This document shows, piece after piece, positions 20,124 through 56,788 of a DNA stretch of 64,000 nt; the first letter of the stretch is position 1, and each line of letters begins with the position of its first letter. The notes beneath the pieces were generated by a model, which did not search any database, was not told the DNA's origin, and worked only from the letters and a program-made list of their open reading frames with translations. Both the position numbers and the translations under genes were made by a program. This DNA comes from Streptomyces sp. NBC_01317 (lineage in GTDB: Bacteria; Actinomycetota; Actinomycetes; Streptomycetales; Streptomycetaceae), in NCBI RefSeq assembly GCF_035961655.1, contig NZ_CP108393.1, positions 1 through 64,000 of the forward strand, given 5' to 3'.

Positions 20124-20161
20124 GGTCCGCCAGCGCGGCGCGTGCGGGGCGCTGGCGGACC
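20124..20161. terminator. Terminator-like hairpin
   Basis: A perfect 13-bp inverted repeat (20124-20136 with 20149-20161) has a 12-base loop. It lies 100 bp past the stop of the hypothetical gene and before the palindromic mobile element. Confidence 0.6.
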
Positions 20162-20197
20162 GCAGGGCGCTTCGCGGATGTCTTCGCGGATGTCCTG

Positions 20198-20367: not shown

Positions 20368-22572
20368 CTAGGCGACCACTGCTGCCCGGCCCGATATGAG
20401 GAGGCATTCGAGAAGCTGGTCGAGGGCGTCGTCGGCGACCGGGCCGAGGCTGATGGTCATCGCCTGCGGGCGGCCGGCGGCCCAGCCGGGGCGGCGTGCG
20501 AGAAGCCTGGCGTCGGCGCCGACGACGTTCAGCAGCGGCAGGTCGGCGCGCGGGTCGGCCAGTTCCTCGACCAGTTCGAGCAGCGGTTCGTCGGCGCGCT
20601 CGAGATCGTCCCAGATCACCACGAGGGGGTGTTTGGCCGCGGCCAGGGCGAGGAAGTCCCGCCAGGCGCCCAGGACCGCGCGCCGTACCGGGCCACGCGC
20701 GTAGATCAGCGGGCCCAGGGCGGCCAGCAGGGCGGCCCGGGTCTCCTGGTCGTCGGTGAGCCCGGCGAGGGCCGTGTCGAGTTTGGCCGAGGCGGATCCG
20801 GGGGTGTCGCCCGGGCCGGTCCCGGCGTAGGAGGCGAGCATCTGGGCCGGCGCGGACATGCCGCCGCGCGAGGGGGCGACGGTGCCGGTCAGTACCCGTA
20901 CGGGCTCGGTGGTGCCGGTCCGCACCAGGCGCTGGAACTCCAGCAGCAGGCGGGCCTTGCGGCCGGGCGGGCCGAGGACGGTCACCAGGTGCGGGGTGGA
21001 GCGGTGCCGGGTCCTGAGCAGGACGGCCCGCATCAGGTCGAGTTCGCACTCGCGGTCGCCGGCCGAGGTCCCGCACTGGTTGGTGAAGCCGTCGCCGACG
21101 GCCATCAGCTTCCAGGGGGCCGTGCCGGTGCCGGTGCCGCGGTAGGTGATGCGGCCATCGGTCAGCCGGCGGGTGGCCTCGCAGACATGGACCTCCCCCG
21201 CGGGGACCATGCCCAGCGCCGTGCGGCAGTCGTCGACGAGATGGCCGCCGATCCACGGCGGGGTCACACCGGCACCGGGCCAGCGGCAGACGACGACCTG
21301 CCCGGTGGAGACCGCGCCGTGCGCGGAGAGCGCCTCCCCCGTGGAGTGCAGGGTGTCCGCGGCGATGGCCAGGCAGTCGCGTACGGCCGCGGCGGCCCGT
21401 ACCGCGCGCACCGCGCCCGCGTTCGCCGGGGTGTCGGTGGCGGTGTCCTCGAAGAGGCCGAGCAGGACGGAGCCCAGCGCCGAGGCGACGATGCCGCCCT
21501 CCGCCTCGATCTTCTCGCGGGCGAGCTGGGTCACCGCGTCCAGGACCCGGTCGACGTCCTCCGGTGGCAGGGTGCCGAACTCGGGTCCGAGCCCGAAGCG
21601 CAGCAGGAGCACACTGGCCTGCCGGTACTCGCCCGGCAAGGCGGCGCGTGCCGCCGTGGGCTCGGCCGTGTGCGGGGAGGGGGGCGCGATGTGCTGCCGC
21701 GGGGGCGGGGTGTGCTGCGCGGGCGGTCCGGGCCGGGGGGGCCGTGCCGTCTGCCCGGGCGGGGGGAGCTGGGTCTGCCCGGGGCGGGGGAGCTGGGCGG
21801 TGCGGGGCAGGTCCAGTGCCGGGTCCTGGGTGAGGACGGCCCGCTGGAGCTGCTGGAGTTCGGGGCTGGGCTCCAGGCCGAGGCCCTCGACCAGGGCCTC
21901 CCGTACCCTCCCGTACACGGCGAGGGCGTCGGCCTGCCGGCCGCAGCGGTAGAAGGCGAGCATGAGCTGGCGCGAGGCGCGCTCGCGCAGGGGCTCGGCC
22001 TCGACCAGTGCCTTGAGTTCGTGGAGCACGCTCTGGTGGCCGCCGCAGGCCAGCTCCGCCTCGAAGCAGTCCTCCATGACGTCGAGGCGTTTTTTCTGGA
22101 TGGAGGTGACCTCGGCCCAGTAGGTGCCCTCCTCGGCGAGATCGGCGAGCACCGGGCCGCGCCAGAGCGCGAGTGCCTCGGTCAGCAGGTCGCGTGCGGC
22201 GGCCGGGCGGCCGGCGGCCAGGGCCACCCGGCCCTCGGCGACCCGCTGCTGGAAGACCAGGAGATCGACCTGCTCGGGCCGTACCCGCAGCATGTACCCG
22301 GGGTACCAGGTCAGCAGTTCGGGGGCCGGCTCGCCGGGGGACAGCCCGGCGAGGACTCCGCGCAGCCGCCAGATCGCGTTCTGGAGGATCTTCCGCGCGG
22401 TCATGGGCGCGTCGTCGGCCGGCCAGAGCGCTCCGAGTAACCGGCTGGTGGAGACCACCTCGTTGGCGTGGAGGAGGAGGTAGGCGAGAGCGGATCGCTG
22501 CCTTATACCGCCGAGTTCCACCAAGCCGTGATCATCATTGACTTCCAACGCGCCCAGAACACGAAATCGCAT
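20368..22572 (-). CDS. SARP regulator with cyclase-like and degenerate AAA domains
   Basis: The protein has 734 residues and the same layout as the SARP at 16,960: winged helix (MRFRVLGALEV), BTAD to about residue 250, a Pro-rich linker (about 265-310), a cyclase-like domain, then an AAA region. The Walker A position reads GPPGRKARLL, lacking the Gly-Lys-Ser/Thr core, so ATP binding is doubtful, while a Walker B-like VVIWDDLE remains. Codon 45 is TTA (22,440-22,438). It ends right after the AAA core at a TAG that is part of the CTAG next to the MITE-like element. It is probably an activator or a partner of the paralogous SARP. It lies 240 bp upstream-adjacent to the aminotransferase stop on the same strand. 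Confidence 0.87.
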   Translation of the reverse strand: MRFRVLGALEVNDDHGLVELGGIRQRSALAYLLLHANEVVSTSRLLGALWPADDAPMTARKILQNAIWRLRGVLAGLSPGEPAPELLTWYPGYMLRVRPEQVDLLVFQQRVAEGRVALAAGRPAAARDLLTEALALWRGPVLADLAEEGTYWAEVTSIQKKRLDVMEDCFEAELACGGHQSVLHELKALVEAEPLRERASRQLMLAFYRCGRQADALAVYGRVREALVEGLGLEPSPELQQLQRAVLTQDPALDLPRTAQLPRPGQTQLPPPGQTARPPRPGPPAQHTPPPRQHIAPPSPHTAEPTAARAALPGEYRQASVLLLRFGLGPEFGTLPPEDVDRVLDAVTQLAREKIEAEGGIVASALGSVLLGLFEDTATDTPANAGAVRAVRAAAAVRDCLAIAADTLHSTGEALSAHGAVSTGQVVVCRWPGAGVTPPWIGGHLVDDCRTALGMVPAGEVHVCEATRRLTDGRITYRGTGTGTAPWKLMAVGDGFTNQCGTSAGDRECELDLMRAVLLRTRHRSTPHLVTVLGPPGRKARLLLEFQRLVRTGTTEPVRVLTGTVAPSRGGMSAPAQMLASYAGTGPGDTPGSASAKLDTALAGLTDDQETRAALLAALGPLIYARGPVRRAVLGAWRDFLALAAAKHPLVVIWDDLERADEPLLELVEELADPRADLPLLNVVGADARLLARRPGWAAGRPQAMTISLGPVADDALDQLLECLLISGRAAVVA

Positions 22573-22812
22573 GAACTCCCCCGTTCAATGGCCACCGGCC
22601 ATGGTGATTGTCATGGCCCCGGCATGGTTCCGGTCTGCTGCCGGAATTCCGGTTTTGATTTGTCAAGCGGGCGCGGCCCCTGATGATCTTTCAGTTCTGT
22701 ACGCTGAAGAATCCTCACAGGAGTCGCGCCCGTGCCCGCATCATCGCTGACCATCCCCTGCCTTGACCAGGTCTTTAATCCGAATGCCACGCCCGGGGGT
22801 GGGCCGGTGGGC
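22573..22812. promoter_or_regulatory. Promoter region of the third SARP gene
   Basis: This is the 240-bp gap between the aminotransferase stop and the SARP start, both on the minus strand. It is more AT-rich than its surroundings (about 22,640-22,720) and so probably holds the SARP promoter. No operator was identified. Confidence 0.35.
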
Positions 22813-24408
22813 TCAGGGCGCGGTCAGTGCTTCGCCCGCGCCGGCCCGCAGCAGCTCGCACACGTCGCGCAGCCCGGTGTCGAGCTGGGCGATCTCGGCG
22901 TCGGTCAGCTCGACGGAGGGCTCGAAGCGCAGGGTGTTGAGCGCGCTCGCGGTGGGGAACGTACGCACCCGGTGGCGGCGCAGGAGGTGTCCGGCCAGGA
23001 CGTAGCCGAAGAAACCGCCGCCCGCGATCTCCCGGACCACCGGTGAGGAGGACCCCGACTGGTCGAGGAATTCCAGGCCCAGCATCAGGCCCCGGCCCCG
23101 GACGTCGGCGACGACGTCGGGGAAGTCCGCCCGTACGCCGTCCAGTGCGGCGCGCAGCGCGGCTCCCCGCTCCTGGGCGACGCGGTAGACCCGTCCGCCG
23201 TCGGCCTCCAGCAGTTCGAGGACCTTGAGGGCGATGTGACAGGAGAAGCTGTCCTTGGCGAAGGTCGAGCTGTGGACGATCTCGAATTCCTTCCGGTAGT
23301 ACTTCTCGCGCACCAGCATCACGGATGTCTTGGCGATACCGCCGCCCAGTGTTTTGGCGAGGGTGAAATAGTCGCCGCGCAGTCCGAGGGGGGCACTGGC
23401 GAGGAGTGTCCCGGTCCTGCCCATTCCGCTCTGGATCTCGTCGACGACAAGGGGGCAGCCGATCGACTCGCAGAACTGCTGGATTTCCTCGGCGAATTCG
23501 CGGGAGAGCACGCGGATTCCGCCCTCGCCCTGGATGGGTTCCACCAGGAAGGCGCAGAAGACCGGGAACTCCCGTTCGGTGAGGGTGACCTGGCCGTCGA
23601 CGGCCCGCGCGCCGAGGAGGACGCCCCGTTCCTTGGCGTGCACCTGCTTGAGGACGTCGGGCCGGTCCTGGGGGACGAACCGGGCCTGGGCGGCGAGCGA
23701 CCGGAAGGGGGCGCGGTACCCCTCGTTGTGGGTGAGCTGCACGCTCGCCGCGAGCTTGCCGTGGAATCCGCCCTCCAGTGCCAGGAACAGCGGTGGCCTG
23801 GCGGTCTGCTCGGCGTTGCGCCGGGCGAGTTCGGCCTCCAGCAGGGCGAAGGCCTCGCGGGGGTCCGCCGGGGCGGTGAGACCCAGGCGTTCCAGGGTGT
23901 GCCCGGCGAGGACGGCGGTGCCGTCGGCGACCGCGGTGCGCGCGGTCTCGTTGTGTGCGCGGATCTCCTCCAGGAGGGCGGCGGTGCGCATCCCCCGGTC
24001 CAGTTCGGCGTGTTTGACCGCCGCCTCGACCGCTTCCGCGCCGCTGTTGGCGAATACCGCGAAATACGGTTCCTCGGTGGCCAGTTCCCGGTGGATGATC
24101 CGGTTCAGCTCGGCGGCGAGGGCGTTGGCGTAGGGGTGGCTGGAGAACTGGGCGTGCACGGGGGTGTCGCCGTCGAGCAGTTCCCGCGCCCTTGCGACGA
24201 TCTCGGGGCGGTTGTGCCCGAGCAGGACGGATCCGTAGCCGCCCGCGAAGTCGGCGACGGGTATCTCGCCGCCCTCGCCGTCCCGTTGGTAGAGGGTATT
24301 GCCCTTCGCGCGGACGTATTCGACGGCCAGGCCGGCACCGGCGAGCACTTCGCGGAGAAAAGGTTCGGCCAGTTCTCTGGACGGGGTTGCGGTGTTGGTG
24401 TGATCCAT
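22813..24408 (-). CDS. Class III (omega-type) PLP aminotransferase
   Basis: The protein has 531 residues, longer than the usual 430-460 because of an inserted segment around residues 140-200. PLP-binding features of fold type I class III enzymes are present: GSVLLGHNRPEI near the N-terminus, ANSGAEAVEAAVKHA, the Asp in VVDEIQSGMGRTG that pairs with the pyridine nitrogen, and the Schiff-base Lys in LAKTLGGG (Lys352). The cluster context (terminal thioester reductase) indicates that the substrate is the released polyketide aldehyde, converted to the primary amine that cyclises to an imine, as for CpkG in coelimycin biosynthesis. It is divergent from the flavin reductase, and an array of 11-bp-spaced heptamers lies 23 bp upstream. 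The ATG at 24,408 has no clear ribosome-binding site, so a short or leaderless transcript is possible. Confidence 0.9.
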   Translation of the reverse strand: MDHTNTATPSRELAEPFLREVLAGAGLAVEYVRAKGNTLYQRDGEGGEIPVADFAGGYGSVLLGHNRPEIVARARELLDGDTPVHAQFSSHPYANALAAELNRIIHRELATEEPYFAVFANSGAEAVEAAVKHAELDRGMRTAALLEEIRAHNETARTAVADGTAVLAGHTLERLGLTAPADPREAFALLEAELARRNAEQTARPPLFLALEGGFHGKLAASVQLTHNEGYRAPFRSLAAQARFVPQDRPDVLKQVHAKERGVLLGARAVDGQVTLTEREFPVFCAFLVEPIQGEGGIRVLSREFAEEIQQFCESIGCPLVVDEIQSGMGRTGTLLASAPLGLRGDYFTLAKTLGGGIAKTSVMLVREKYYRKEFEIVHSSTFAKDSFSCHIALKVLELLEADGGRVYRVAQERGAALRAALDGVRADFPDVVADVRGRGLMLGLEFLDQSGSSSPVVREIAGGGFFGYVLAGHLLRRHRVRTFPTASALNTLRFEPSVELTDAEIAQLDTGLRDVCELLRAGAGEALTAP

Positions 24409-24430
24409 GCACCACAGGGTGCTCGCGTCC

Positions 24431-24505
24431 GGTCAACCAGCGGTCACCGCGGGGTCATCCGCGAGGGGTACGGGCAGGTGGCGCGGCGGTTACCCGGGGG
24501 TGGGA
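24431..24505. promoter_or_regulatory. Candidate SARP operator: heptamer direct repeats at 11-bp spacing
   Basis: This lies in the divergent aminotransferase/flavin-reductase promoter region. Three heptamers, GGTCAAC (24,431), GGTCACC (24,442) and GGTCATC (24,453), are spaced exactly 11 bp apart. A second, weaker set, GGTGGCG (24,477), GGTTACC (24,488) and GGTGGGA (24,499), has the same spacing. SARP proteins bind heptamer direct repeats with this helical-turn spacing, so these are likely targets of one of the three SARPs. Confidence 0.55.
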
Positions 24506-24625
24506 GACGGCGGGGCCGGCGCGGGTACGTTGAAGGCCACCGGCCGGCGGGACCCAGGGACAACCACGCGATACCCACGGATGGCACGTGATGTGCGCTG
24601 CTCAAAATACCTCGGAGAGGGTGGC

Positions 24626-25183
24626 ATGAATTCCGCGTCCACTGAACTCGATCCCGCGGCCGTGCGTCCGGGGCCACAGCCGGTGCAACCCGTCCGGCTC
24701 AGGGAAGTGATGTCCCGCTTCGCGACCGGTGTCACGGTGATCACCGTGGGGGGCGAGCACGTGCACGCCATGACCGCGAACGCGTTCAGTTCGGTCTCCC
24801 TCGATCCGCCGTCGGTGCTGTGCAGTGTGAGCCACGGCGCGGTGATGCACGGCGCGCTGGCCTCCGCGGGCCGCTTCGCCGTCAACATACTCGGCGTGCG
24901 GCAGGAGCCCCTGGCGCGGCATTTCGCCGACAAGCACCGCACGCTGGGGGCGGCCCAGTTCGAGGGGGTGGCGTGGGAGGCCGGGAAACACACCGGGGCG
25001 GCCCTGCTGGGCGGTTCGGTGGCCTGGCTGGAGTGCGAGCTGAGCGACTCGCACGTCTTCGGCGACCACACCATCTTCATCGGGACGGTCCTGGCGGCCG
25101 GCCGGGGCAGCGGCGAGGACGGGCTGCTCTTCGTCGACGGCCGCTTCGGCAGGCCCGACCCGGCCCCGGCCCCGGGCCACTAG
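24626..25183 (+). CDS. Flavin reductase (two-component monooxygenase partner)
   Basis: The protein has 185 residues with the flavin-reductase-like split barrel of the HpaC/ActVB family. The N-terminal FATGVTVITV is the family's hallmark strand, followed by MTANAFSSVSLDPPSVLCSV (flavin contact region) and, near the C-terminus, a G-D-H-T-I-F-I-G strand. It should use NAD(P)H to reduce free FMN or FAD for the two acyl-CoA-dehydrogenase-fold oxygenases in this cluster. The ATG at 24,626 follows GGAGAGG. Its TAG stop is part of the CTAG into which the IS element at 25,184 inserted, and the insertion left the reading frame and stop unchanged. Confidence 0.9.
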   Translation: MNSASTELDPAAVRPGPQPVQPVRLREVMSRFATGVTVITVGGEHVHAMTANAFSSVSLDPPSVLCSVSHGAVMHGALASAGRFAVNILGVRQEPLARHFADKHRTLGAAQFEGVAWEAGKHTGAALLGGSVAWLECELSDSHVFGDHTIFIGTVLAAGRGSGEDGLLFVDGRFGRPDPAPAPGH

Positions 25184-26095
25184 GGGTCGTCTTCAAAGCT
25201 GTTTGTGCGATGCGGGATTATGGCGGGTGTGGTGCGTCGTCATGAGTTGTCGGATGTTGAGTGGGCTGTGTTGTCGCGGTTGTTGCCGAGTTCGGGGACG
25301 GCTGGTCGGCCCCGGTCGGATGACCGGGTGGTGCTGAACGGGATCGTGTGGAAGCTGCGGACCGGTTCGGCCTGGCGGGACGTGCCGGAGCGTTACGGTT
25401 CCTGGCAGACCTTGTACACGCGTTTCCGCAGGTGGGCGCTGGACGGAACCTTCTCCCGCATGCTGAAGGCGATCCAGGCGGAGAGGGACGCGGCGGGTGA
25501 CATCGACTGGCTGGTGTCGGTGGACTCCACGATCGTGCGGGCCCACCAGCACGCGACCGGTGGGAAAAGGGGGCTGCCGACCGGGACGAAGCGGGTGATC
25601 ACGCCCTCGGCCGATCCCGTGGAGGACTGAGCACCAAGGTCCACCTGGCCTGCGACGGACACGGCCGGCCCCTCGCCTTCGTCCTGACCGGCGGCAACAC
25701 CAACGACTGCACCCGCTTCGAAGACGTCCTGGACGCCATCCGTGTTCCGCGCACCGGCCCGGGACGTCCCCGCACCCGACCCGACCACGTCATCGCCGAC
25801 AAGGGCTACAGCTCTCGCAAGATCCGCGCCTACCTGCGCAGACGCGGTATCGGGCACACCATCCCCGAACGCATCGACCAGGCCACAGGCCGCCTGCGCA
25901 AAGGCTCACGCGGCGGCCGCCCACCCACATTCGACAGGAGGGTCTACCGGCTCCGCAACGTCGTCGAACGATGCTTCAACCGACTCAAGCAATGGCGCGG
26001 CCTGGCCACCCGCTACGACAAAACCCGCGAGTCCTACCAAGCCACCGTCACCATCGCCTCCATCTTCCTCTGGATATGACCTTTGAAGACGACCC
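25184..26095 (+). mobile_element. IS5-like insertion sequence (IS427-group type), apparently intact
   Basis: The element is 912 bp. Its ends are perfect inverted repeats of 15 bp (GGGTCGTCTTCAAAG at 25,184 and its complement ending at 26,095). It is flanked by direct repeats of CTAG (25,180-25,183 and 26,096-26,099); a reading as a 16-bp repeat with a TA duplication is equivalent. It carries one transposase split over two frames. CTAG/TA target duplication and the two-frame transposase are typical of the IS427 subgroup of IS5. It sits exactly at the stop codon of the flavin reductase gene. Confidence 0.88.
25220..26079 (+). CDS. IS5-family transposase, two frames joined by frameshift
   Basis: The first frame (ATG at 25,220 to TGA at 25,630) encodes the N-terminal domain (ELSDVEWAVLSRLLP, W-R-D-V-P-E-R-Y-G) and the first catalytic Asp (SVDSTIVRAHQHA). 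The second frame begins inside it and runs to 26,079. It contains RGGLSTKVHLACDG, the second Asp (VIADKGYSS) and the catalytic Glu (NVVERCFNRLK), completing the DDE triad. A run of four A's and five G's at about 25,564-25,572 is the likely slip site producing the full-length protein. All three catalytic residues are present, so the element may still be active. Confidence 0.85.
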
Positions 26096-26114
26096 CTAGG
26101 GCGTCTCTTGCGGA

Positions 26115-26179
26115 GCACACCCGGGGCCGCCGGGTGTGCCGGAGCGGTGGGCGGCCCGCCCGGGTGCCGGGCGGGCCGC
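26115..26179. terminator. Two consecutive terminator-like hairpins
   Basis: The first is a 10-bp perfect stem (26115-26124/26130-26139, 5-base loop). The second is a 13-bp perfect stem (26151-26163/26167-26179, 3-base loop). They lie just past the IS element. Before that insertion they would have directly followed the flavin reductase stop, so they are probably its native terminator. Confidence 0.65.
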
Positions 26180-26283
26180 CGTTTCGGGCGCGGCGGGTGA
26201 GAGGGTGTGGGGGTCTTGCGGGCCCGGTGTGCGGAGAGCCGTCCGTGCCGGGGCCGTTCAGGGCCCGGCGCCGTACGTACGCG

Positions 26284-26318
26284 GAAGGCCCGGGGCGGTG
26301 AGCGCGGCCCGGGCCTTC
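26284..26318 (-). terminator. Terminator-like hairpin of the flavoenzyme operon
   Basis: A perfect 11-bp stem (26284-26294/26308-26318) has a 13-base loop. It lies 38 bp past the stop of the minus-strand acyl-CoA-dehydrogenase-like gene. Confidence 0.65.
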
Positions 26319-26355
26319 TGCGTGGGTGGGTGCGGGACCGTGCCCGCGGGGGGGA

Positions 26356-27528
26356 TCAGAGGAAGTACGTGCCGGGCTCCAGGCCCAGCAGGACCCGGCC
26401 CTGCACCTCCAGGTTGGCGTTGAGCTGGACCAGGGCGTGCAGCGAGAAGCCCTGGATGTCGCGGTGGAAGCGCTGGAGGTCCACCTCGCGGCGGATGACC
26501 GAGCCGCCGCTGGCCGCGAAGAGCAGTTCCACGGCCTCCTTGGAGAGCTGCGCCGCGTAGGCGGTCCTGCCGCGGATGACGGCCTTCTCCTCGTCCGAGG
26601 GCTGGAGGCCCGCGTCGGCCGCGCCCTGCAGGACCCGGTGCCAGGAGTGGGAGAGTGCCGCGGCCGCCTCGATCTTGCTGGAGGCGAGGGCCACCTGCTG
26701 CTGGGTGAGCGGGTGGTGGCTCTGCTCGGTCCACTGGGTGTAGGTGATGCCGCGTCCGGGCAGCCGCTCCAGGAACAGTTCGAACGCGCCGCGCGCCATC
26801 CCGACGAAGGTCGCGGAGACACTGGACATGATGTAGCCCAGCAGACCGTAATTACGGCCGGTGGCACCGGTGTTGGAGCGGTTGCCGGTGGCCGAGACCA
26901 TGGCCTCCTCCAGCGGTACGACCCGGTGCGCGGGCACGAAGACGCCGGTGGCGGTGGTCGTGGAACTGCCGGTGGCGGCGCCGGCCGAGACGTGCCAGTC
27001 GTCGGCGAAGGCCAGCTCGGAGGTGGGCACCAGCGCGACCAGTTCCTGGGCCGTCCCGTCGGGCTGCTCCACCACCGCGGCCAGCAGGTCCCAGTCCGCG
27101 CCCCGGCAGCCGGAGTTGAAGCGCCAGGTGCCGTCGAGGCGGTAGCCGCCCTCGACCGGTTCGAGGGTGCCGGTGGGGGCGAAGACGATGGAGACCCTGC
27201 CGCTGCCTTCAAAGACCTCCTTCTGCGCCTGGTCGGGGTAGAGGGTCGCGCACCAGGCGCTGGTGAGCCACACCATCGTCAGCCAGCCGGTGGAGGGGCA
27301 CCCCCGGGCCACCTCGGCGATGACCTGGGCCTGCTGCGCCACGTCGAAGTCGAGACCGCCGTGCTCGCGCGGCACGGCCGTGCGGAACACCCCCGCCCTC
27401 TGGAGCAGTTCGATGTTCTCCTCCGGTATCCAGCGCTGCTCCTCCGCGGCGGCCCCGTTGCGGCGAAGGGCGGGCACGGCGTCGCGTACCGCGTCCAGTA
27501 CAGAGGTCAGTTCTTCCTGCGTGGCCAC
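26356..27528 (-). CDS. Acyl-CoA-dehydrogenase-fold flavin-dependent monooxygenase/oxidase (copy 2)
   Basis: The protein has 390 residues and is a clear paralogue of the gene at 8,622-9,800. The two share the start of the helical domain (RRWIPE/QRWIPE-ENIELL), the SNTGATGRNY block in the middle domain, and an LQRFHRDIQG-type segment before the C-terminus. It is related to group D flavin monooxygenases (HsaA, pigment-pathway oxidases) as well as to acyl-CoA dehydrogenases. The likely role is oxidation or epoxidation of the cyclised amine with reduced flavin from the reductase at 24,626. The GTG at 27,528 is selected because GGAGAG lies 5 bases upstream. It is the last gene of a minus-strand operon beginning with the two NTF2-like genes; a short palindromic element has inserted between it and them. 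Confidence 0.85.
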   Translation of the reverse strand: MATQEELTSVLDAVRDAVPALRRNGAAAEEQRWIPEENIELLQRAGVFRTAVPREHGGLDFDVAQQAQVIAEVARGCPSTGWLTMVWLTSAWCATLYPDQAQKEVFEGSGRVSIVFAPTGTLEPVEGGYRLDGTWRFNSGCRGADWDLLAAVVEQPDGTAQELVALVPTSELAFADDWHVSAGAATGSSTTTATGVFVPAHRVVPLEEAMVSATGNRSNTGATGRNYGLLGYIMSSVSATFVGMARGAFELFLERLPGRGITYTQWTEQSHHPLTQQQVALASSKIEAAAALSHSWHRVLQGAADAGLQPSDEEKAVIRGRTAYAAQLSKEAVELLFAASGGSVIRREVDLQRFHRDIQGFSLHALVQLNANLEVQGRVLLGLEPGTYFL

Positions 27529-27655
27529 TTTTCTCTCCTCGAAGTGCCGTGGAGTACACGGGCAATACACGGGATGTGCCGTCTTTGACGCCAGAACCCC
27601 CCTGGTCCCAGGGGGGTTCGCGGTCGTGCCCCTCGTTCGCGCCCGGACCGCCCGG

Positions 27656-27722
27656 GGCGTGTGCGCGAAATGGTGTCCGGCTCGCGCCCTGCGGGCGGAC
27701 GGCCCCACTTCGCGGACACGGC
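27656..27722. mobile_element. MITE-like palindromic element, copy 2 (internally deleted, inverted)
   Basis: This 67-bp copy is in the opposite orientation to copies 1 and 3. From its right end inward it matches the left arm of the others for about 39 bp (GTGTCCGCGAAGTGGGGCC core), then jumps straight to the opposite terminal repeat (TTTCGCGCACACGCC). About 100 bp of core, including the central hairpin, is missing. The right end abuts CTAG (27,723-27,726), which contains the stop codon of the NTF2-like gene. Confidence 0.6.
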
Positions 27723-28148
27723 CTAGCCGGCGACCAGGCCCGTCGCGGCCACGGGACGGTCGATGGACATCAGCCAGCGGCCGTCCTCCCCGCGCCGCAG
27801 GACGTCGGTGCACACGCCCCGCAGCTGTACGGGCTGTCCGTCCGCCTCGATGGTGTCGATCTCGTAGTTGACACCGATCAGCGCGACGTCGCCGGCGACA
27901 TACGCGTGGGTCACCGTGGCGCGCAGGTCGGGCTTGCCGCCGAGGAACTCCTTGAAGAACGCCAGCCGTGCCTCGCCGGTGAGGGGCTCACCGGAGAAGT
28001 TCGAGATCGAGTCCTCCCGGTAGAGGCTGTCGAACAGCGCTCCGTCACCGGAGTTGAACGCCTGGATGAAGATGTCGTTCTGGGTGTCGGTGTCGGCGGT
28101 GAGGTCGGGGTTCGCCGGGTCGAAGTCGACATCGAAGGTGTACGCCAT
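27723..28148 (-). CDS. NTF2-like (SnoaL-type) putative cyclase 1
   Basis: The protein has 141 residues with a nuclear-transport-factor-2-like cone fold. The pattern is the SnoaL/ketosteroid-isomerase type: an early helix (DIFIQAFNSGDGALFDSLY), a short hydrophobic strand (SISNFSGEPLTG) and the twisted sheet ending in GRWLMSIDRP. Such proteins form a deep hydrophobic pocket. In the streptazone pathway, as I recall it, two of them catalyse carbocycle closure with epoxide opening. The ATG at 28,148 follows GGAAAGGA. Its TAG stop lies in the CTAG bordering a MITE-like copy. It is 59 bp downstream of a second NTF2-like gene, so the pair is probably one operon. Confidence 0.82.
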   Translation of the reverse strand: MAYTFDVDFDPANPDLTADTDTQNDIFIQAFNSGDGALFDSLYREDSISNFSGEPLTGEARLAFFKEFLGGKPDLRATVTHAYVAGDVALIGVNYEIDTIEADGQPVQLRGVCTDVLRRGEDGRWLMSIDRPVAATGLVAG

Positions 28149-28207
28149 GATCGGTCGGTCCTTTCCGTGGGAGGGGGGAGGAGGGAGGGGGGCGGTGCGG
28201 TCCCGGG

Positions 28208-28588
28208 TCAGTCCTCCTGGCCGTACGGGTCGTCGATGGCGTAGCGCCACACCTTGTCCTCGCCCAGCCGCAGGACGTCGACGCCCGTGCCGGTGAGCCG
28301 CTCGGGCTTCCCCTCGGCGTCGACCGTGTCGATCGTCCAGTCGACGATCAGCAGGGCCGTGTCGCCGGTCACGAACGTCTGCCGGGGCACGGCGGTCATC
28401 GTCGGCCGGTTCTTGAGGAATTCCCGCTGGTATTCCCGGCGCGCGTCGCCCGTCAGCGGCTTGCCCGGCTCCCAGACTGCGACGGACTCCGCCGTGTAGA
28501 AGCTGTCCATGGTTTCGAAGTCGCCCGCGTTGAAAGCCTCAACATATTGACTTGTGTGCTTTTCCACGTCGTCGGTGAGCTGTGACAT
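28208..28588 (-). CDS. NTF2-like (SnoaL-type) putative cyclase 2
   Basis: The protein has about 126 residues and is a divergent paralogue of the NTF2-like gene just downstream. It shares the opening helix (YVEAFNAGDFETMDSFY), the GKPLTGDAR loop and the closing strand W-R-Y-A-I-D-D-P. The catalytic residue cannot be assigned with confidence; Asp and His/Arg positions in the pocket differ between the two copies, which suggests different steps or heterodimers. The ATG at 28,588 is used; an in-frame TTG at 28,600 with a better-placed AGAAGG is an alternative that adds four residues. It is the first gene of the minus-strand operon and divergent from PKS1. Confidence 0.8.
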   Translation of the reverse strand: MSQLTDDVEKHTSQYVEAFNAGDFETMDSFYTAESVAVWEPGKPLTGDARREYQREFLKNRPTMTAVPRQTFVTGDTALLIVDWTIDTVDAEGKPERLTGTGVDVLRLGEDKVWRYAIDDPYGQED

Positions 28589-28848
28589 GACGAAATCCAA
28601 CCTGCCTTCTCTTGTAGCCGGGTGCCGCCCTTTCGTACGCCGACACTATTGCGGGGTCATCAACGTCCCGCCCATGAACGGGTAATGCGGCGGTCTCCCG
28701 GCATGTGGCCGGGGTGGTTACCGCCCGGTGGAGCCGCGCTGAGAGGGCCGAGAGGACCACCTGCCTACGATCTGGAAGCAGTGTCACCGAAATGCCTTTC
28801 AAGGTCGCCCAGTTCGGCCGGATTCACTGGAAAGGGAAGTCGAGCGCG
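28589..28848. promoter_or_regulatory. Divergent promoter region, cyclase operon / PKS operon
   Basis: This is a 260-bp gap between the NTF2-like operon (minus) and PKS1 (plus). A TACGAT at 28,766-28,771 is a plausible -10 for the PKS transcript. GGT-type heptamers occur at 28,681 and 28,692, and at 28,716 and 28,727, each pair 11 bp apart, compatible with SARP control. It shares GCGGGGTCATC (28,651) with the aminotransferase/flavin-reductase promoter region (24,449). Confidence 0.45.
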
Positions 28849-31800
28849 ATGACGAATCAGCACCATTTCCACAGGGCCGCGCAGGGCGAGGGGCCCGGCG
28901 AGGGCATCGCGGTCGTCGGAGTGTCCTGCCGGCTTCCCGGCGCGGACACCCCCGGGGCTTTCTGGGACCTGCTGCGCACCGGCTCGGACGCCATCACCCC
29001 GGTGCCCGGCGGGCGCTGGCTGCCCGCCTCCGGCGAACCGGCCTACCAGGCGGCGGAGCCGGGGACGCGCCGGGGCGGGTTCCTGGACCGGGTGGACACC
29101 TTCGACGCGGACTTCTTCGGCATCTCACCGCGCGAGGCCACCACCATGGACCCCCAGCAGCGGCTGGTGCTGGAACTGGCCTGGGAGGCCCTGGAGGACG
29201 CCGGCACCCTCCCGGCCGCGCTGCGCGGCAGCCGTACCGCCGTGTTCGTGGGCACCCTGCGCGACGACTACACGGCACTGCTCTACCAGTACGGCGACCG
29301 GGCGCTCACCCAGCACACCATGACCGGCGTCAACCGGGGCGTCATCGCCAACCGGGTCTCCTACCACCTGGGCCTGCACGGACCGAGCCTGACCGTCGAC
29401 TCGGCGCAGTCCTCCTCGCTGGTCGCCGTCCATCTCGCCTGCGAGTCCCTGCGCTCCGGCGAGAGCGACACGGCGATCGCGGCGGGCGTCAACCTGAACA
29501 TCCTCGCCGAGAGCGCGGCCACCGGGGAGCGGTTCGGCGGGCTCTCCCCCGACGGCACGACCTACGCCTTCGACGCCCGCGCCAACGGTTTCGTGCGCGG
29601 CGAGGGCGGGGCGGTCCTCGTCCTCAAGCCGCTGGCCCGCGCGGTCGCGGACGGCGACCGCGTCTACGGGGTCATCCGCGCCAGCGCGGTCAACAACGAC
29701 GGTGCGACCGCGGGCCTGACGGTCCCCGGCCGGCCGGCGCAGGAACGTGTCCTGCGCGAGGCGTACGAGAAGGCCGGCATCGACCCGGCCGCCGTGCAGT
29801 ACGTCGAACTCCACGGCACCGGGACCCCGGTGGGCGACCCCGTGGAGGCGGCGGCGCTGGGCGCGGTGCTCGGCGCGGGCCGGGCCCCGGGCGCGGGGCT
29901 GCGGGTCGGCTCGGCCAAGACCAACGTGGGCCACCTCGAAGGCGCGGCCGGCATCGTCGGCGTGCTCAAGACACTGCTGGCGCTGAGCCACCGGCGGCTG
30001 CCCCCGAGCCTCAACTTCGCCGCCCCCCACCCCCGGATCCCCCTGGAGGAGCTGGGACTGGAGGTGCAGCGGGAGCTGACCGAGTGGCCCGCGCCCCAGC
30101 GGCCGCTGGTGGCCGGGGTCTCCTCCTTCGGCATGGGCGGCACGAACGCGCACGTCGTCCTCACCGAGGGCCCGGTGTCCCTGGCACCCGGCGCTCCCGC
30201 CCACCGGGCGGCCGGTACTCCCGGTGTGGTCCCGCTGGTGCTCTCCGGGCGCTCGGAAACAGCGCTGCGGGCCCAGGCCGCCCGCCTGCGGAACGCCCTG
30301 ACGGGCGAGGGCGCGCCGGTGACCGCCGACGCCGCCTGGTCCCTGGCCACCACCCGTACCGTCTTCGAGCACCGGGCGGTCGCACTGGCCGCGCCCGGCG
30401 GCGGTCCCGGCCTCCTTCACGCGCTCGACGCCCTCGCCGCGGGCGAATCGTCGGCCGATGTGGTGCGCGGCGCGGCCGGCCCGGGGCGGCTCGCCTTCGT
30501 CTTCACGGGGCAGGGCGCCCAGCGTGCCGGGATGGGCCTGGAGCTGTACGGGGCGTTCCCCGCGTTCGCCGAGGCCTTCGACGCGGTCCGCGCCGAGCTG
30601 GACCCGCTGCTGGAGCGGCCGCTGCTGGAGGTGATCGCCTCCGGGGAGGGCCTGGAGGAGACCGGGTACGCCCAGCCCGCGCTCTTCGCCCTCGAAGTGT
30701 CCCTCTACCGGCTGGCGGAGTCCTGGGGTGTGGTGCCGGACCTGCTCGCCGGCCATTCCATCGGTGAGATCGCCGCCGCGCATGTCGCGGGGGTCTTCGA
30801 CCTGCCCGACGCCGCGCGGCTGGTCGCCGCGCGCGGGCGGCTGATGCAGGCGCTGGCGCCCGGCGGTGCGATGGTCGCGGTCGAGGCCACACCCGGTGAG
30901 GTGTCCGCGCTCCTGGCTGGCCATGAGGACCAGGTGGGCATCGCCGCGGTCAACGGGCCCCGTTCGGTGGTCCTGTCCGGTGCGCGCGAGAGCGTCCTGG
31001 CGCTCGCGGAGCGGCTGCGCGGCCAGGGGCGGCGGACGAAGCGGCTGAATGTCTCGCACGCCTTCCACTCCCCGCTGATGGACCCGATGCTCGACGACTT
31101 CCGTACGGTCGTGGACGGGCTGAGCCTGCGCGCGCCCCGCATCGGCGCGGTGTCGTCGGTGACCGGGCAGCTTGTGGGCGAGGCCTGGTCGTCGGCCGCG
31201 TACTGGGTGGAGCAGGTGCGCCGCCCGGTGCTGTTCGGGGACGCGGTGCGGGCCCTGGAGGACGCGGGCGCCACCGCGTTCGTGGAGCTGGGGCCCGACG
31301 GGGTCTGCTCGGCGATGGTCCGCGACAGTGTCCGGGAGGCGGACGCGGTGCTCGCGGTGGCCGCGCTGCGCGGGGGGCGGCCGGAGGCCAGGACCCTGCT
31401 GGCGGCCCTGGCGGCGGCCTTCGTGCGGGGTACGCACGTCAACTGGGGTGCGATCCCCTCCTACGGTGACGCCCGGCGCGTACCGCTGCCGACCTACGCC
31501 TTCCAGCGGGAGCGGTACTGGGTCTCGGGCACCGCTGCCGCCCGTGAGCTCACGCCCGGCGCGCCGCAGGCTCCCGTCACGGGGGAAGCCGCACCCGGCG
31601 GCCGGGAGGCGGGCGATGTAGCCGGGGTGGGGGCCGCGGTGGACGCGGACGCGCTGGTGGCCGGGCTGGTCGCGCGGGTGCTGGAGTATCCGGCCGGGCG
31701 GCGGGTGCCCCCGCACGCCACGTTCAAGGAGCTGGGCTTCGACTCGCTGATGTCGGTGGAGCTGCGCGACGCGCTGGCCTCCGCGACGGGGCTGCGCCTG

Positions 31801-42822: not shown

Positions 42823-42891
42823 CCCGCGCACCCTCCCGGCGCACGCGCACCCACGACGCAGCAGACCGATCCCACAGGAGTGGAGAACACC

Positions 42892-47556: not shown

Positions 47557-47760
47557 CACCCGGCCACCACCGGCCCACCGGCCCGGAGCACACCCCACCA
47601 CCCCACCACTGCCGCCGTTTCCGCCACCACCCCCACCCCCACCACTGCCACCACCGCCGCCGCCGTTTCCGCCACCGCCGCCACCACTGCTGTTCTGGTG
47701 GCGGCACCGGCCCGCCGGCCTACCGGCCCACCGGCACCGACGAGGAGAGACTGATCCCGC
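47557..47760. other. Intergenic CCACC/CCGCC repeat stretch
   Basis: This 204-bp gap between PKS2 and PKS3 is dominated by CCACC and CCGCC repeats on the plus strand, so the minus strand is G-rich with several closely spaced G-runs able to form G-quadruplexes. It has no coding content. A GAGGAGAG ribosome-binding site for PKS3 lies at its right end. Confidence 0.55.
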
Positions 47761-50700: not shown

Positions 50701-53700
50701 CCGGCCGGCCACACCCGCGGCGGAATCCCCGTCCTGCCCGAATCCGCCCTCGTAGAACTCGCCATACGCGCCGGCGACGAAGCACACTGCACCACCCTGG
50801 ACGAACTCCACATCACCCAACCCATCACCCTGCCCGCCGAAGGAGCCATCCACCTCCAGATCCGCCTCGGCGCCCCCGACACCAACGGACAACGCACCCT
50901 CACCTTCCACACCCGCCCCGACCACACCCAAACCCCCTGGACCCCCCACGCCCACGGCCTGCTCAGCACCACACCCCACCCCACCCCGGCCACCACACCC
51001 AACACCCCCTCACCCCACCCCGGCCCATGGCCACCCGCCGGCGCCACCCCCCTCGACCCCCACACCCTCTACGAACAATCCACCAAAAACGGAATCACAC
51101 ACGACCCACAGACCCGGGCCCTGACCCGCCTCTGGCAACACGGACACGACCTGTACGCCGAAGTAGAACTGCCACCCGGCACACCCACAGAAACAAACCC
51201 CTACGCACTACACCCCCTCCTCCTCGACGCCGCCCTGCTCCCCCTCCTCACCCCCACCCCAACAAAAACCAGCACCCAACCAAAAGCCGAGACCGGGGAA
51301 ACCGGAGCCGGGGAAACCCGAACCGACACAGGGAACAGGGAAACCGAGGCCGAGACCGACGCCGGGGCCGGGGAAGCCGGAACCGAGGCCGGAGCCGGAG
51401 CCGAGACCGGGGCCGAGGCCGAGGCCGGGGCCGGGGCCGGGGCCGGGGCCGGGACCGAGGCCGGGGCCGGAGCCGAGACCGGGGCCGGAGCCGAGACCGG
51501 GGCCGGAGCCGAGACCGGGGCCGGAGCCGAGACCGGGGCCGGAGCCGAGACCGGGGCCGGAGCCGAGACCGGGGCCGGAGCCGACGCCGAGGCCGAGGCC
51601 GGAGCCGACGCCGAGGCCGAGGCCGGAGCCGACGCCGAGGCCGAGGCCGGAGCCGAGACCGGAGCCGGAGCCGAGACCGAGGCGGGGGCGGGGGCGGGGG
51701 CGGGCATTGTCACCGCCTGGCACAACGTGCGGCTCCACGCCGCCGGAGCGACCACCCTGCGCGTACACCTGGCCCGCGGCGGCGAAGGCACCGCGAGCGT
51801 ACGGCTGGCCACCCCCGCGGGACAGCCCGTCGCGGACATCACGGCCGTCACCGTGGAGCCCCTGGACCTGACCGCACTCGCGGCCGCGGCCGCCCGCGAC
51901 CACGAAGCGCTCTTCCACCTCGACTGGACACCCCACCACCTCACCCCCACCACCGGAACACCCGCCCCCCACACACCCGCCGACGGAACACCCGCCGACG
52001 GCATACCGGCCGGCGGAACACCGGCCGACGGCATACCGGCCACCCACACGCCGGCCGCCGGCGCACCGGCAGGTGGCGTACCGGCCGACGGCATACCGGC
52101 AGGTGGCGTACCGGCCGGTGGCATGCCGGCCGGTGGCATGCCGGCCGGCAACGTGATCGAGCGCCTGCGCTCCGCCGACCCGGCCGATCCCCTGGCCTCG
52201 CTGCACGAGACGACCCTGCGCGCACTCCAGCTGGCCCAGCGCCACCTCGCCGACGAGGACAGCACCCACACCCTGACCGTCCTGACCCGCGGGGCCGTCA
52301 GCACCACCCCCGGGGAGCCGATCACCGATCCGGGCGCCGCCGCGGCCTGGGGCCTCCTGCGCTCCGCCCAGTCCGAAGCACCCGGCCGTATCATCCTCAT
52401 CGACGCCGAACCCGGCACCGACCCCGCCCTCATCGCCGCGGCCGCCGCCTCCGGCGAACCCCAGGCCGCGATCCGCCAGGGCACCATGACCGTGCCCCGC
52501 CTGACCCGGGCCACCCGCCCCCAGCCCCCCACCACACCCGCCTTCACCCCCGGGGGAACCGTCCTGATCACCGGCGGCACCGGAACCCTGGGCTCCCTCT
52601 TCGCCCGCCACCTCGCCACCTCACACGGCGTACGCCACCTCCTGCTCGCCGGCCGCCAGGGCCCCCGGGCACACGGAGCCCAGGAACTCGCACAGGAACT
52701 CAACCGCCTCGGCGCGAGCGTCACGATCAAAGCCTGCGACGCCGGCGACCGCGACCAGCTCGCCGCCCTCATCGACGCGATCCCCGCAAACCGGCCCCTG
52801 ACCGGCGTCATCCACACCGCCGGCATCCTGGACGACGGGCTCATCCCCGCGATGACCCCCCAACGCCTGGCCGCGGTCCTCACCCCCAAAGCAGACGCCG
52901 CCTGGCACCTGCACGACCTCACCCGCCACCTCCCCCTCACCGCCTTCGTCCTGTTCTCCTCCGTCGCCGCCCTCATCGGCGGCCCCGGCCAGGCCAACTA
53001 CGCCGCCGCCAACGCCTCCCTCGACGCCCTGGCCCACCACCGCGCCGCCACCGGCCTGCCCGCCACCTCCATCGCCTGGGGCCTATGGGCCCAAAGCACC
53101 GGACTCACCGGCAACCTCAGCGAAACCGACCTCAAACGCATCGCCCGCACCGGCCTGCTCCCCGTCCCCACCACCCAGGGCCCCACCCTCCTCGACCTCG
53201 CCCTGCGCACCGGCCGCCCCGACACCGTGGCCACCCCCCTCGACCTGACCGCCCTGAGCGCACAACCCCACATCCCCACCGTCCTCACCACCCTCGCCCA
53301 CCGCCCCCCACGCCCACACGTCCACAGCGACACCCCCCACACCCCCCCGCTCACCGAACAACTCACCCACCTCACCGGCGAACAACGCCACGAAGCGGTC
53401 ACCCGCACCATCCTCGAAGAAATCGCCGGAACACTCGGACACACCACCCCCCAGCACATCGACCCCCACCGCCCCTTCCAGCAACTCGGCCTCGACTCCC
53501 TGACCTCCGTCGAACTACGCAACCGCCTCACCACCCGCACCCACCTCAAACTCCCCGCCACCCTCGTCTTCGACCACCCCCACCCCCACGCCCTCGCCAC
53601 CCACCTCCTCACCCGCCTCACCCCCCACACCACCAGCACCCAACCCGCCGACACCACCAACACCCCCGACACCACCGACTACACCGCCGACATCCACCTC

Positions 53701-54873
53701 GACGACGACATCCGCCCCACCACCCCCCACACCCCCCGCACCACCCCACCACGCCACATACTCCTCACCGGCGCCACCGGCTTCCTCGGCACATTCCTCC
53801 TGCGCGACCTCATGCGCACCACCACCGCCCACATCCACTGCCTCGTCCGCGGCACCGACACCACCACCGCCCTCCAACGCCTCACCACCAGCCTGAAGTG
53901 GTACCGGGTCTGGGACGACATCGACCCCCAGCGCCTCACCGTCCACCCCGGCGACCTCGCCCAACCCCTCCTCGGACTCACCGAAAACACCTTCAACACC
54001 CTCGCCCGCACCCTCGACGTCATCCACCACGCCGGAGCCACCGTCCACTGGCTCCACCCCTACACCACCCTCAAACCCGCCAACGTCGGCGGCACACAAG
54101 AAATCCTCCGCCTCGCCACCCGCCACCACACCATCCCCGTCCACCACGTCTCCACCGTCGGCGTCTTCAACGGCCCCCGCACACCCGGCACCCCCCTCAA
54201 ACCAACCGACCCCACCGGACCCCCCCAACACCTCCCCAGCGGCTACCTCAAAACCAAATGGGTCGCCGAACAAATCCTCGACATCGCCCGCACCCGCGGC
54301 ATCCCCGTCACCACCTACCGCGTCGACGTCATCTCCGGCGACCAGAAAAACGGCGCCTGCCAAACCCGCGACTTCGTCTGGCTCACCCTCAAAGGCATCC
54401 TCCAGACACAAACCGCCCCCACCCACACCCAAAGCCGCTTCCACCTCCTCCCCGCCGACTACGTCAGCGCCGCCATCCTCGCCCTCGCCGACAACCCCCA
54501 CACCACCGGCCACACCTACCACCTCCACAACCCCCACCCCCTCACCCTCACCGACTGCATCGAACACCTCCGCACCCTCGGCTACCCACTCCACAACACC
54601 ACCCGCCACCAATTCACCCAAACCATCCAGAACAACCCCGACAACGCCCTCCAACCCCTCCTCCACGCCTTCGACATGATGACCAACCACACCGACGCCT
54701 TCTACCCCCCCATCGACACCACAGAAACAACCCGGGCACTCACCGGAACCAACATCCACTGCCCCCCCATCACCCCCCAACTCCTCACCACCTACATCCA
54801 ATTCTTCATCGACCAAGGCCACTACCCCCCACCCCCCAACCCCACCAACACCCAACACACACCACCCACCTAA
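47761..54873 (+). CDS. Modular type I PKS: module 4 (KS-AT-DH-KR-ACP) with terminal thioester reductase
   Basis: The protein has 2,370 residues: docking helix (1-35), KS (38-460, IDTACSSS), AT (585-931, GHSIG/HAFH, malonyl), DH, KR (1599-1776, GGTGTLG, LDD, Tyr in GQANY), ACP (1880-1953, LGLDSL) and a C-terminal SDR-type thioester reductase (1996-2360; GATGFLG, Tyr-x-x-x-Lys in SGYLKTKW). The reductase releases the chain as an aldehyde, as in coelimycin-type alkaloid synthases. The DH is odd. Its N-terminal half keeps [10 protein letters not shown] and LLDAALLPL (His usually found after the Asp motif is Leu), then about 150 low-complexity residues (1164-1313) intervene before the last DH strands resume ([20 protein letters not shown]). 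A second repetitive linker (about 1400-1463) follows. Whether this DH is active decides the C2-C3 alkene. Codon usage becomes extremely C-rich toward the 3' end. Confidence 0.95.
51463..51648 (+). repeat. Coding tandem repeats: six perfect 18-bp units then three perfect 24-bp units
   Basis: Six identical, contiguous 18-bp units (51,463-51,570; GGGGCCGGAGCCGAGACC) encode GAGAET each. After one variant unit, three identical 24-bp units (51,577-51,648) encode GADAEAEA each. Related imperfect copies extend from about 51,285 to 51,703. They lie within the DH domain of PKS3, stay in frame, and are the kind of array that changes copy number by slippage. Confidence 0.9.
51958..52150 (+). repeat. Coding minisatellite of about 15-bp units (PAGG/PADG pentapeptides)
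   Basis: This encodes a Pro/Ala/Gly linker made of about 13 imperfect pentapeptides of the form (A/G)-(D/G)-G-(I/V/M/T)-P-A between the DH and KR regions of PKS3. Units such as GCCGGTGGCATGCCG repeat back to back near 52,110-52,145. All variation keeps the frame. Confidence 0.8.
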
Positions 54874-55180
54874 ACCCACACCCACACCCACAAGAACACC
54901 CAGCCGCCGCCCCGCCCGCACCCCGGCCGGCCACCAAACGCACAGCGCCACGAACACCACGCGGTCCAGGAGACGACGCGCCCGGCCGGACACCGCCCGG
55001 GCGCCCACGCCACGCATACGGCCCATACCCGCCAGACAGGCAAGGACGGAAAAGCGTTCACCGGGCCCGAACGCAGCACACCAACTTCCCTCACCGACGA
55101 ACGACCTCACCCCACACCCGGACAACACACCCGAAAACCCCACCCGCTTCCAGCACCACAGAGGATGCCCCACAGCCCAG
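54874..55180. other. Non-coding, A+C-rich 3' flank of the PKS operon
   Basis: No gene and no strong terminator hairpin are seen. The plus strand is conspicuously rich in A and C and poor in T, continuing the asymmetry of the upstream PKS3 3' end although it is non-coding. Confidence 0.5.
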
Positions 55181-55352
55181 AGCGTGTCCGCGAAGTAGGG
55201 CCGTCCGCCCGCAGGGCCTGGCCCGCCGCGCCCGGTGCGTACGATCGCAAGGCGGAGGACCCACCCCGTACCGGATGTACGGAGTGGGTCCGACAACGCC
55301 GCAAGCCCGCGTGCCAGACGCCGCGAGCCAGAACCCACTTCGCGGACACGCC
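55181..55352. mobile_element. MITE-like palindromic element, copy 3 (full length)
   Basis: This 172-bp non-coding copy is homologous to copy 1 (20,198). Its ends are inverted repeats (GCGTGTCCGCGAAGT at the left and the complement at 55,338-55,352), flanked by matching CCAG on both sides (55,177-55,180 and 55,353-55,356). The central hairpin (55,257-55,291) pairs GGACCCAC with GTGGGTCC. It directly abuts the dead IS element on its right. Confidence 0.68.
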
Positions 55353-55356
55353 CCAG

Positions 55357-56220
55357 GGGGTGTCTTGTCGATCACGTGTTGAGCCAGATGAGTGTGCTGA
55401 CGAGGGTGATGGCGGCGAGGTAGCGGTCTGGGCGTTTGTCGCAGCGGGTAGCAATGGCGCGCCATCGCTTGAGGCGGTGGAAGCAGCGTTCGACGACGTT
55501 GCGCCGCCGGTAGGCGGCCGAGTCGAACCGGCAGGGCCGTTCGCGGCGTCCTCTGCGTCCGGCGACCTGCTCAACGCGTCCGGGAATCGTCGCCTTGATC
55601 CCACGCCGGCGGAGGCAAGCCCGAAAAGCACGGGCCGAGTAGCCCTTGCCAGCGACAACGTGGCCAGGCCGGGTCCCAGGCCCTCCCGGGCCCGGCCGCG
55701 GCACGCGGATCCCGCCGATGACAGCTCCGGCCCGGGTACAGTCGTTACCGTTGCCGCCGGTGACCAGGAAAGCCAGGAACCGGCCACGGCCGCCGCAGAC
55801 AAGGTCGAGCAAGCTGGTCAGCCCCCCGCGGGAGCATCCCGGTCCGCGTTCCTCAAGCCCCCTTCGACGGCCGCGTGCTGGTGCGCGCACACGATCGTGG
55901 AACCGATCGCAACCAGCCAGCCCACCTCCGACCGCGCCAGCGCCGCGGCCAGCAGGCGGCCGAAGGTACCGTCGACGGCCCAGCGGCCGAAACGTCCGTA
56001 GACGCTCTGCCACGGACCGAACCGCTCGGGCAGATCCCTCCAGGACAGCCCGATGCGGAACGCGAACACGATGCCCCCAAGGACCTGGCGATGACCCCGC
56101 CACCGGCCACGACCCCGGCCCACCGGCGGCAACAACAGCGCAATCACCGCCCACACAGCATCAGAAATCTCCCCACCCCTCACGACCAGACCAACAACCC
56201 GATGACCAGAAAGACACCCC
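55357..56220 (-). mobile_element. IS5-like insertion sequence, decayed
   Basis: This 864-bp element has imperfect terminal inverted repeats (GGGGTGTCTT... at the left, complement of GGGGTGTCTTTC at the right). The flanks are CCAG on the left (55,353-55,356) and CTAG on the right (56,221-56,224), probably a once-identical target duplication. It is a different lineage from the intact element at 25,184. Its transposase has lost catalytic residues. The right flank CTAG contains the stop codon of the LuxR remnant. Confidence 0.75.
55372..56183 (-). pseudogene. IS5-family transposase, catalytically dead
   Basis: The two-frame transposase starts at GTG 56,183 (ISDAVWAVIALLLPPVGRG) and ends at 55,372. 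Against the intact copy at 25,220, the first catalytic Asp is Gly (VAIGSTIVCAHQ instead of VDST), the second is Gly (VVAGKGYS instead of ADKGYS), and the conserved DGRG is GGRG. The Glu (NVVERCFHRLK) is kept. No DDE chemistry is possible. It still has the two-frame arrangement. Confidence 0.75.
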
Positions 56221-56788
56221 CTAGGCCTGGTCGAGCCACCGGACGAGTTCGATGCGGGAACGGATGCCCAGGGTAGCGAACACATTACGCAGATGGTGAT
56301 CCACCGTACGGGGACTCAACGACAAGCGCAGCGCCACCTCACGATTAGTGGCACCCTCCGCCACACAACGGGCAATCCGCTGCTGCTGAGGCGTCAGCAT
56401 ACGCAACACACCCACCCCGCGAAACCGCTCCCCCGCCGGATCGGACACCGCCTCACCCGCAGCACGCAACTCACCACGCACCCGCCCCAACCACAAATCC
56501 GCACCACACCGCTCAAAAGCAACAAGAGCATCCCGCAACGGCCCCCTGGCCTCACGAGTCCTGCGACGACGCCGCAACCAATGCCCATAAAGAAGCAACG
56601 TACGACCACGCTCAAAATCACCAGACACACACCCATGCCGACGCAACGCCTCCTCAAACCACCACCCCGCCTCACCCCCAGAAGCCAACAAAGCCCGACA
56701 ACGCGCCAACTGAGCCGACACCACCACATCCCCACAACCACCCACCCAAACACCAAACTCCTCCACCACCACACCAACCCCCAACACC
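56221..56788 (-). pseudogene. N-terminally truncated LuxR-family regulator
   Basis: Only the C-terminal part of a large LuxR (LAL-type) protein remains. It has helical-repeat sequence (VVVSAQLARCRALLASGGE, FERGRTLLLYGHWLRRRRR) and then an intact LuxR helix-turn-helix (LTPQQQRIARCVAEGATNR, ending SRIELVRWLDQA). The frame loses homology at about 56,788, where the base composition also changes abruptly and an unrelated frame begins. There is no start codon for a functional protein. The TAG stop at 56,221 is part of the CTAG bordering the dead IS. It was probably once a cluster or neighbouring regulator. Confidence 0.6.

Follow-up and report, generated by a model that had tools for sequence, protein, structure and literature searches.

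Why should four mobile elements in one stretch of chromosome each end exactly at the stop codon of a neighbouring gene? The stretch analysed here (the window) comprises the opening 64 kb (64,000 nucleotides, nt) of the single 8.07-Mb contig of Streptomyces sp. NBC_01317. At 20368, 25180, 27723 and 56221 it has, as an initial annotation had noticed, a CTAG that contains the TAG of a domain-bearing open reading frame (ORF) and whose neighbouring base is already the end of an insertion sequence (IS) or of a miniature inverted-repeat transposable element (MITE). The probable answer, to which we give roughly a 70% chance, is that the targeting of CTAG rebuilds stop codons, and that the survival of insertions at harmless CTAGs accounts for most of the excess found at stops. 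A further, modest insertion preference for stops or for the CTAGs that flank elements is possible.

The first junction is at the end of a SARP-type regulator gene, the third SARP (20371..22572, minus strand; BTAD domain, Pfam PF03704, E 1e-47; stop at 20368-20370). Here, the CTAG at 20368..20371 is both the TAG stop and a target-site copy of MITE 1, a near-perfect fold-back hairpin of about 169 nt (20199..20367) with ends of the GGCGTGTCCGCGAAG type. The second is at the end of a flavin reductase gene (24620..25180, plus strand; Pfam PF01613, E 1.2e-38; stop at 25181-25183), which looks whole because the alignments with its three closest homologues reach residue 180-184 of 187. Its CTAG (25180..25183) is also the left target duplication of an intact element, IS-A (25184..26095, plus strand), and the right duplication lies at 26096..26099. 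At the third, the CTAG at 27723..27726 contains the stop (27723-27725) of a SnoaL/NTF2-like gene on the minus strand (27726..28151; Pfam PF12680, E 1.4e-12) and is a target-site copy of MITE 2, a 67-nt short form (27656..27722). The fourth CTAG (56221..56224) is the TAG stop of a LuxR-type regulator remnant on the minus strand (56224..56730), with a C-terminal GerE domain (Pfam PF00196, E 1.3e-13), and it adjoins IS-B, an 864-bp IS427-type element (55357..56220, minus strand); a different IS lies on the same CTAG in the right-arm copy of this region. Directly against the other end of IS-B is MITE 3 (55181..55352; 172 nt), flanked by CCAG at both ends, which makes a nested pair of the elements at the LuxR gene. 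The junctions described in the initial annotation are therefore real, but the four places are not four separate single elements, MITE 3 being a fifth that it lacked.

The same annotation attributed a CTAG target duplication to all four. A gene-side CTAG is indeed present in every case, and the gene's TAG has been left in place, as expected if the duplication regenerates the stop; among the four junctions, CTAG flanks both sides only for IS-A (25180 and 26096). The far flanks read CCGG for MITE 2 (its left flank), CCAG for IS-B (left) and CTGG for MITE 1 (20195-20198, by eye), CTAG being kept on the gene side only. This one-sidedness of IS-B, MITE 1 and MITE 2 fits the decay of a copy that would be needed by no gene. 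Both copies are found for all five identical IS-A copies of the genome (5/5; one is a terminal-repeat duplicate), for 59 of the 74 IS sites with two ends (4 of the 74 being IS-A itself) and for 55 of 66 sites in a second set described below.

On its sequence, IS-A is assigned to the IS5 family, IS427 type. Most of its 912 bp is occupied by two transposase frames, an ORF at 25205-25630 and a frame at 25630-26079 in a different reading frame, with matches to DUF4096 (PF13340, E 3e-28) and DDE_Tnp_1 (PF01609, E 2.8e-22). The second frame ends at a TGA within the element, and the terminal inverted repeats read GGGTCGTCTTCAAAG on the left and its inverse on the right. IS-A thus has the two-ORF organisation of the IS427 group (PMC9241763), the frameshifted product being putative. 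The Pfam matches of the IS-A and IS-B proteins were only of the DUF4096 and DDE_Tnp_1 type, with no IS481-type transposase among them. IS-B has DDE_Tnp_1, with DUF4096 in the other frame, and its own genome has no other match to it that exceeds 66% identity. The VDSTIV motif of IS-A is IGSTIV in IS-B (window 55818-56285, minus strand). The aspartate of this motif, which we take to be the first catalytic Asp of the transposase, thus seems to be lost in IS-B, which fits the dead look of this element.

The outer part of the window recurs, inverted, at the opposite end of the chromosome. Window positions 18701-21871, 23684-27595 and 26186-29220 are matched at 100% by three loci at 8.04-8.05 Mb, and the inverted right-arm repeat continues at 98% identity at window 53.7-55.3 kb and at 97.5% at 56.2-56.8 kb, with differing elements between (loci L043, L044, L052, L061 and L066, compared with window 18701-29220 and 53679-56782). 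MITE 1, IS-A and MITE 2 are present twice because of this terminal duplication, and each was therefore counted once below.

How an insertion could leave its host gene unharmed is simple to envisage. IS427-type transposases of the IS5 family, and MITEs with the same kind of ends, take the palindrome CTAG as their target, which is duplicated on insertion; because every CTAG has TAG on both strands, an insertion at a CTAG stop restores that stop next to the gene, which is left unchanged. For IS-A, this can be read from the two flanking copies; for the others, the gene-side copy is there and the partner copy has presumably been lost. CTAG is strongly avoided in this genome; most of its occurrences are intergenic or at stops, and fewer are inside genes (24/132). 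If selection removes insertions within genes, in 5′ regions and between the genes of an operon, insertions would pile up at gene 3′ ends, among which CTAG stops would be an exact and harmless seat. Selection for the stop would then maintain the CTAG beside the gene and leave the far copy free to decay.

For the counts, the empty site was rebuilt for each insertion, and its CTAG was then classified. Own-genome counts take in the two-ended MITEs and the four IS-A sites, one-ended MITE pieces and other IS427-like matches that lack recognised ends being left out; the MITE count also leaves out an 88-bp copy whose stop-side flank is CTCG (L011) and the nested L042, which gives n = 20. The first IS set comprises related IS loci from named genomes (80 of 547 kept): from 86 IS loci, 12 without two clear ends and 5 duplicates were dropped, which left 69 sites (25 at stops), and the removal of 8 with less than 400 nt of flank left 57 relatives and 4 own copies. 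The second set comes from 12 further genomes chosen by copy number, among the matches listed; 15 of its 81 sites lacked two clear ends and were dropped, leaving 66, and no site is common to both IS sets. The counts include five rows of one genome (G007) in which one flank is CTAA or TTAG, which may be another repeat, and two loci whose ends are probably wrong (L191 and L365).

CTAG stops hold 17 of the 24 own-genome insertions (MITEs 14/20, IS-A 3/4), against 27 of 132 background CTAGs (p 2.6e-6); the corresponding counts are 20/57 against 13/120 in the first IS set (p 1.8e-4) and 27/66 against 60/289 in the second (p 8e-4). The pooled (stratified) odds ratio for stops versus all CTAGs is 3.89 (p ~1e-11), or 3.61 with stricter gene calls; these and all other P values are uncorrected, and sites within one genome are not independent. 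Once L042, L011 and L031 are settled by hand, the MITE count at stops becomes 17/22. The enrichment at TAG stops relative to all CTAG sites, which the initial annotation had proposed as a check, is thus borne out in each of the three sets.

That annotation had also supposed that CTAG is rare, which it is (14 in the window against a mean of 73 in shuffles), and that stop codons preceded by C may be the commonest safe landing sites; stops are not the commonest CTAGs. In the own-genome background (40 stretches of 20 kb, with a codon-usage gene caller trained on them), the 132 CTAGs comprise 27 stops, 24 sites within genes and 81 between genes. The base preceding the stop in this sample is C or G in a ratio of 26:64 for TAG and 275:119 for TGA, so that, in odds against G, C is about 5.7-fold scarcer before TAG than before TGA: CTAG avoidance extends into stop codons. 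In an independent plasmid annotation, a coding sequence ends exactly at the CTAG beside 2 of 8 IS copies (L371 and L377, the right end of the latter being only weakly recognised).

Is the excess at stops due to survival or to targeting? Stops and 3′ intergenic sites together, compared with interior and 5′ sites, give a pooled odds ratio of 2.94 (p 7.5e-8), with 9.46 in the own genome and 3.22 in the second set. Stops lying less than 60 nt before a gene on the same strand hold 1 of 64 stop insertions, against 11 of 87 background stops taken from the own-genome and second-set backgrounds (p 0.011). In the second set, a CTAG in which two convergent genes both have their stop is the site of 4 of 66 insertions, against 1 of 289 background CTAGs (p 0.005); at such a CTAG (L302, L344, L358 and L364), the duplication gives each gene a separate stop. 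Diverged MITEs are at stops more often (14/20) than ISs are (47/123; p 0.013). Tn7 is a transposon specific for a gene end. Such confinement is not seen here, since 5 of 57 IS insertions in the first set and 6 of 66 in the second lie inside genes, and others are in divergent regions. The systematic stop targeting envisaged in the initial annotation is therefore only partly supported: insertions are enriched at stops, but non-stop CTAGs are also hit, tight-operon stops are avoided, and the excess is smaller when 3′-side CTAGs are the reference.

The other possibility is that insertion is guided to CTAGs at the 3′ ends of genes, more than survival would account for, either by the transposase or by the DNA found there (hairpins, supercoiling or the termini of older CTAG elements). 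We consider this unlikely. Several results weigh against survival or weaken the case for it. Within the first IS set, the avoidance of interior and 5′ sites is not significant alone (odds ratio 1.62, p 0.11). Stops exceed even 3′ intergenic CTAGs, with a pooled odds ratio of 2.35 (p 4e-4); of the three sets, two are significant, the own genome at 4.25 (p 0.013) and the first IS set at 3.85 (p 0.004). Stricter gene calls give 2.09 pooled, 8.6 for the own genome (p 4e-4) and 2.45 for the first set (p 0.06). Identical copies, which are the only information on IS age, are at stops in 10 of 22 cases in genomes G058 and G089, against 31 of 118 background sites (p 0.06), which speaks clearly for neither reading. 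Of the 42 stops annotated on 8 plasmid loci, the home-made gene caller recovered 30. Lastly, four of the six own IS427-type insertions with recognised ends (four IS-A copies, IS-B, and IS-C of the right arm) occupy a CTAG that lies where a MITE meets a gene stop, which is more than survival predicts; in the case of IS-C, the IS and the MITE are separated by an IS630-like element (DDE_3). If some 30 MITE-flanking CTAGs (28 were counted) are assumed among an estimated 1331, this has P 4e-6 relative to all CTAGs and about 1e-4 relative to 3′-side CTAGs, for a pattern that was noticed post hoc. IS5 of Escherichia coli, moreover, apparently requires DNA features besides the 4-mer, according to the available part of PMC5493358. 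Against such steering, the second and largest set (66 sites, 289 background) shows no significant excess of stops over 3′ intergenic CTAGs (odds ratio 1.5, p 0.15; stricter calls, 1.23, p 0.32), and the avoidance of tight-operon stops would not be predicted by targeting alone. The residual stop excess is thus present in two sets and is not seen in the largest.

The LuxR stop bears on the same question, since the elements seated there differ between the arms. On the left arm, it holds IS-B; on the right arm, the order is gene, CTAG, IS-C, CTAG, IS630-like element and CTAG, followed by MITE-like sequence, so a CTAG stands between each. It is conceivable, though rather doubtful, that CTAG stops are accretion points, where the gene-side CTAG left by a first element would be the preferred target of further, unrelated elements (IS427-type and IS630-like) by insertion and not by survival only. 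If so, gene 3′ ends would gather strings of elements separated by CTAG, with the gene intact. The IS630-like element itself (DDE_3, 363 amino acids; L066:2281-3412, right arm) is bracketed by two CTAGs, one of which provides the TAG that ends the element's transposase ORF, as in published IS481 elements.

The MITEs are short, have inverted-repeat ends and show CTAG duplication. The own genome gives 41 BLAST matches, among which are 22 distinct copies with two recognisable ends, 44-172 nt long; 9 of these have both flanking CTAGs, 10 have one and 3 have none. No autonomous partner with matching ends was identified among the own IS loci examined; an IS427-type family of another genome, G098, begins GGCGTGTCCGCAA, as the MITE does. 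A wide distribution in the genus was considered and rejected: at E 1e-30, a sample of 199 genomes of the genus yielded the MITE in 2, one of which was its own. Another MITE-like family has GGCSTGTCCGGCGGATC ends; several of its copies adjoin CTAG (G000 around 3690613, 6885221, 790727 and 1713119; L232, L234, L242 and L246), and in one case a single CTAG is all that separates such a copy from a member of the first family.

Could the host instead have retained MITE hairpins at stops as 3′ terminators or mRNA stabilisers? MITE 1, the only copy folded, forms one long hairpin as RNA (-137.7 kcal/mol, z -9.9), and 11 of the 14 MITE-at-stop copies face a convergent gene, but stop insertions as a whole show no significant surplus of convergent neighbours (p 0.066), ISs share the trend to stops, and the scarcity of the MITE in the sampled genomes also makes such a benefit very improbable. 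Nor is it credible that chance and ascertainment suffice, i.e., that four junctions are what any CTAG-targeting element would give where CTAG is rare and often a stop: background CTAGs are stops in 27 of 132 cases, and those of the window in 6 of 14 by the gene caller, or 7 of 14 with LuxR added by hand (4 of the 7 occupied, with those at 5140, 19230 and 62187 lacking any element), but the stop enrichment in all three data sets rejects chance as the whole explanation.

Survival after CTAG targeting, as the favoured explanation, makes these genomes a counted case in which a target that is a stop palindrome would allow elements to persist where genes are dense and the GC content is high, at little cost to those genes. 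The counts also set the baseline rates that any claim of targeting to stop codons would have to exceed. Strings of CTAG-separated elements at gene ends suggest a readable record of repeated insertion, and the gene-side CTAG may be the sole survivor of a target duplication, so that such duplications can be overlooked.

How does this compare with known systems, each taken from the available parts of its paper? In the accessible literature (subscription journals were mostly outside the search), no count of stops against all CTAG sites was found, the available parts of PMC6794481 included, and target-gene stops made from CTAG were found only for TnRErm46 of Rhodococcus equi. IS5 of E. coli resembles the present elements in that CTAG is the commonest form of its Py-T-A-Pu target (15 of 24 listed), and the same source notes that CTAG is under-represented in bacterial genomes; it differs in its looser target and in that the insertions described there are in regulatory regions, with no stop-codon pattern (PMC5493358). 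ISMysh01 of Mycobacterium shottsii shares with IS-A an IS5-family transposase and 4-base CTAG direct repeats, but it is a single-ORF element classified as IS5/IS5, whereas the two frames of IS-A are consistent with the IS427 group; the passage on it makes no statement about target-gene stops (PMC9241763). ISLxc2 of Leifsonia xyli, of the IS481 family, has a stop codon within its duplication, NCTAGN, but this is the stop of its own transposase and not of the target gene (PMC2516522). TnRErm46/ISRe46 targets CTAG and makes an NCTAGN duplication from which some target genes take their stop; it differs in being a resistance transposon with an IS481-family transposase, whose own stop comes from the target, unlike that of IS-A (PMC6794481). 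Since the stop supply by TnRErm46, the CTAG repeats of the IS5 family and the scarcity of CTAG had already been published, the principle is not new; the pattern is real and countable in several genomes, and its cause is mostly ordinary: a rare palindromic target that rebuilds stops, together with selection.

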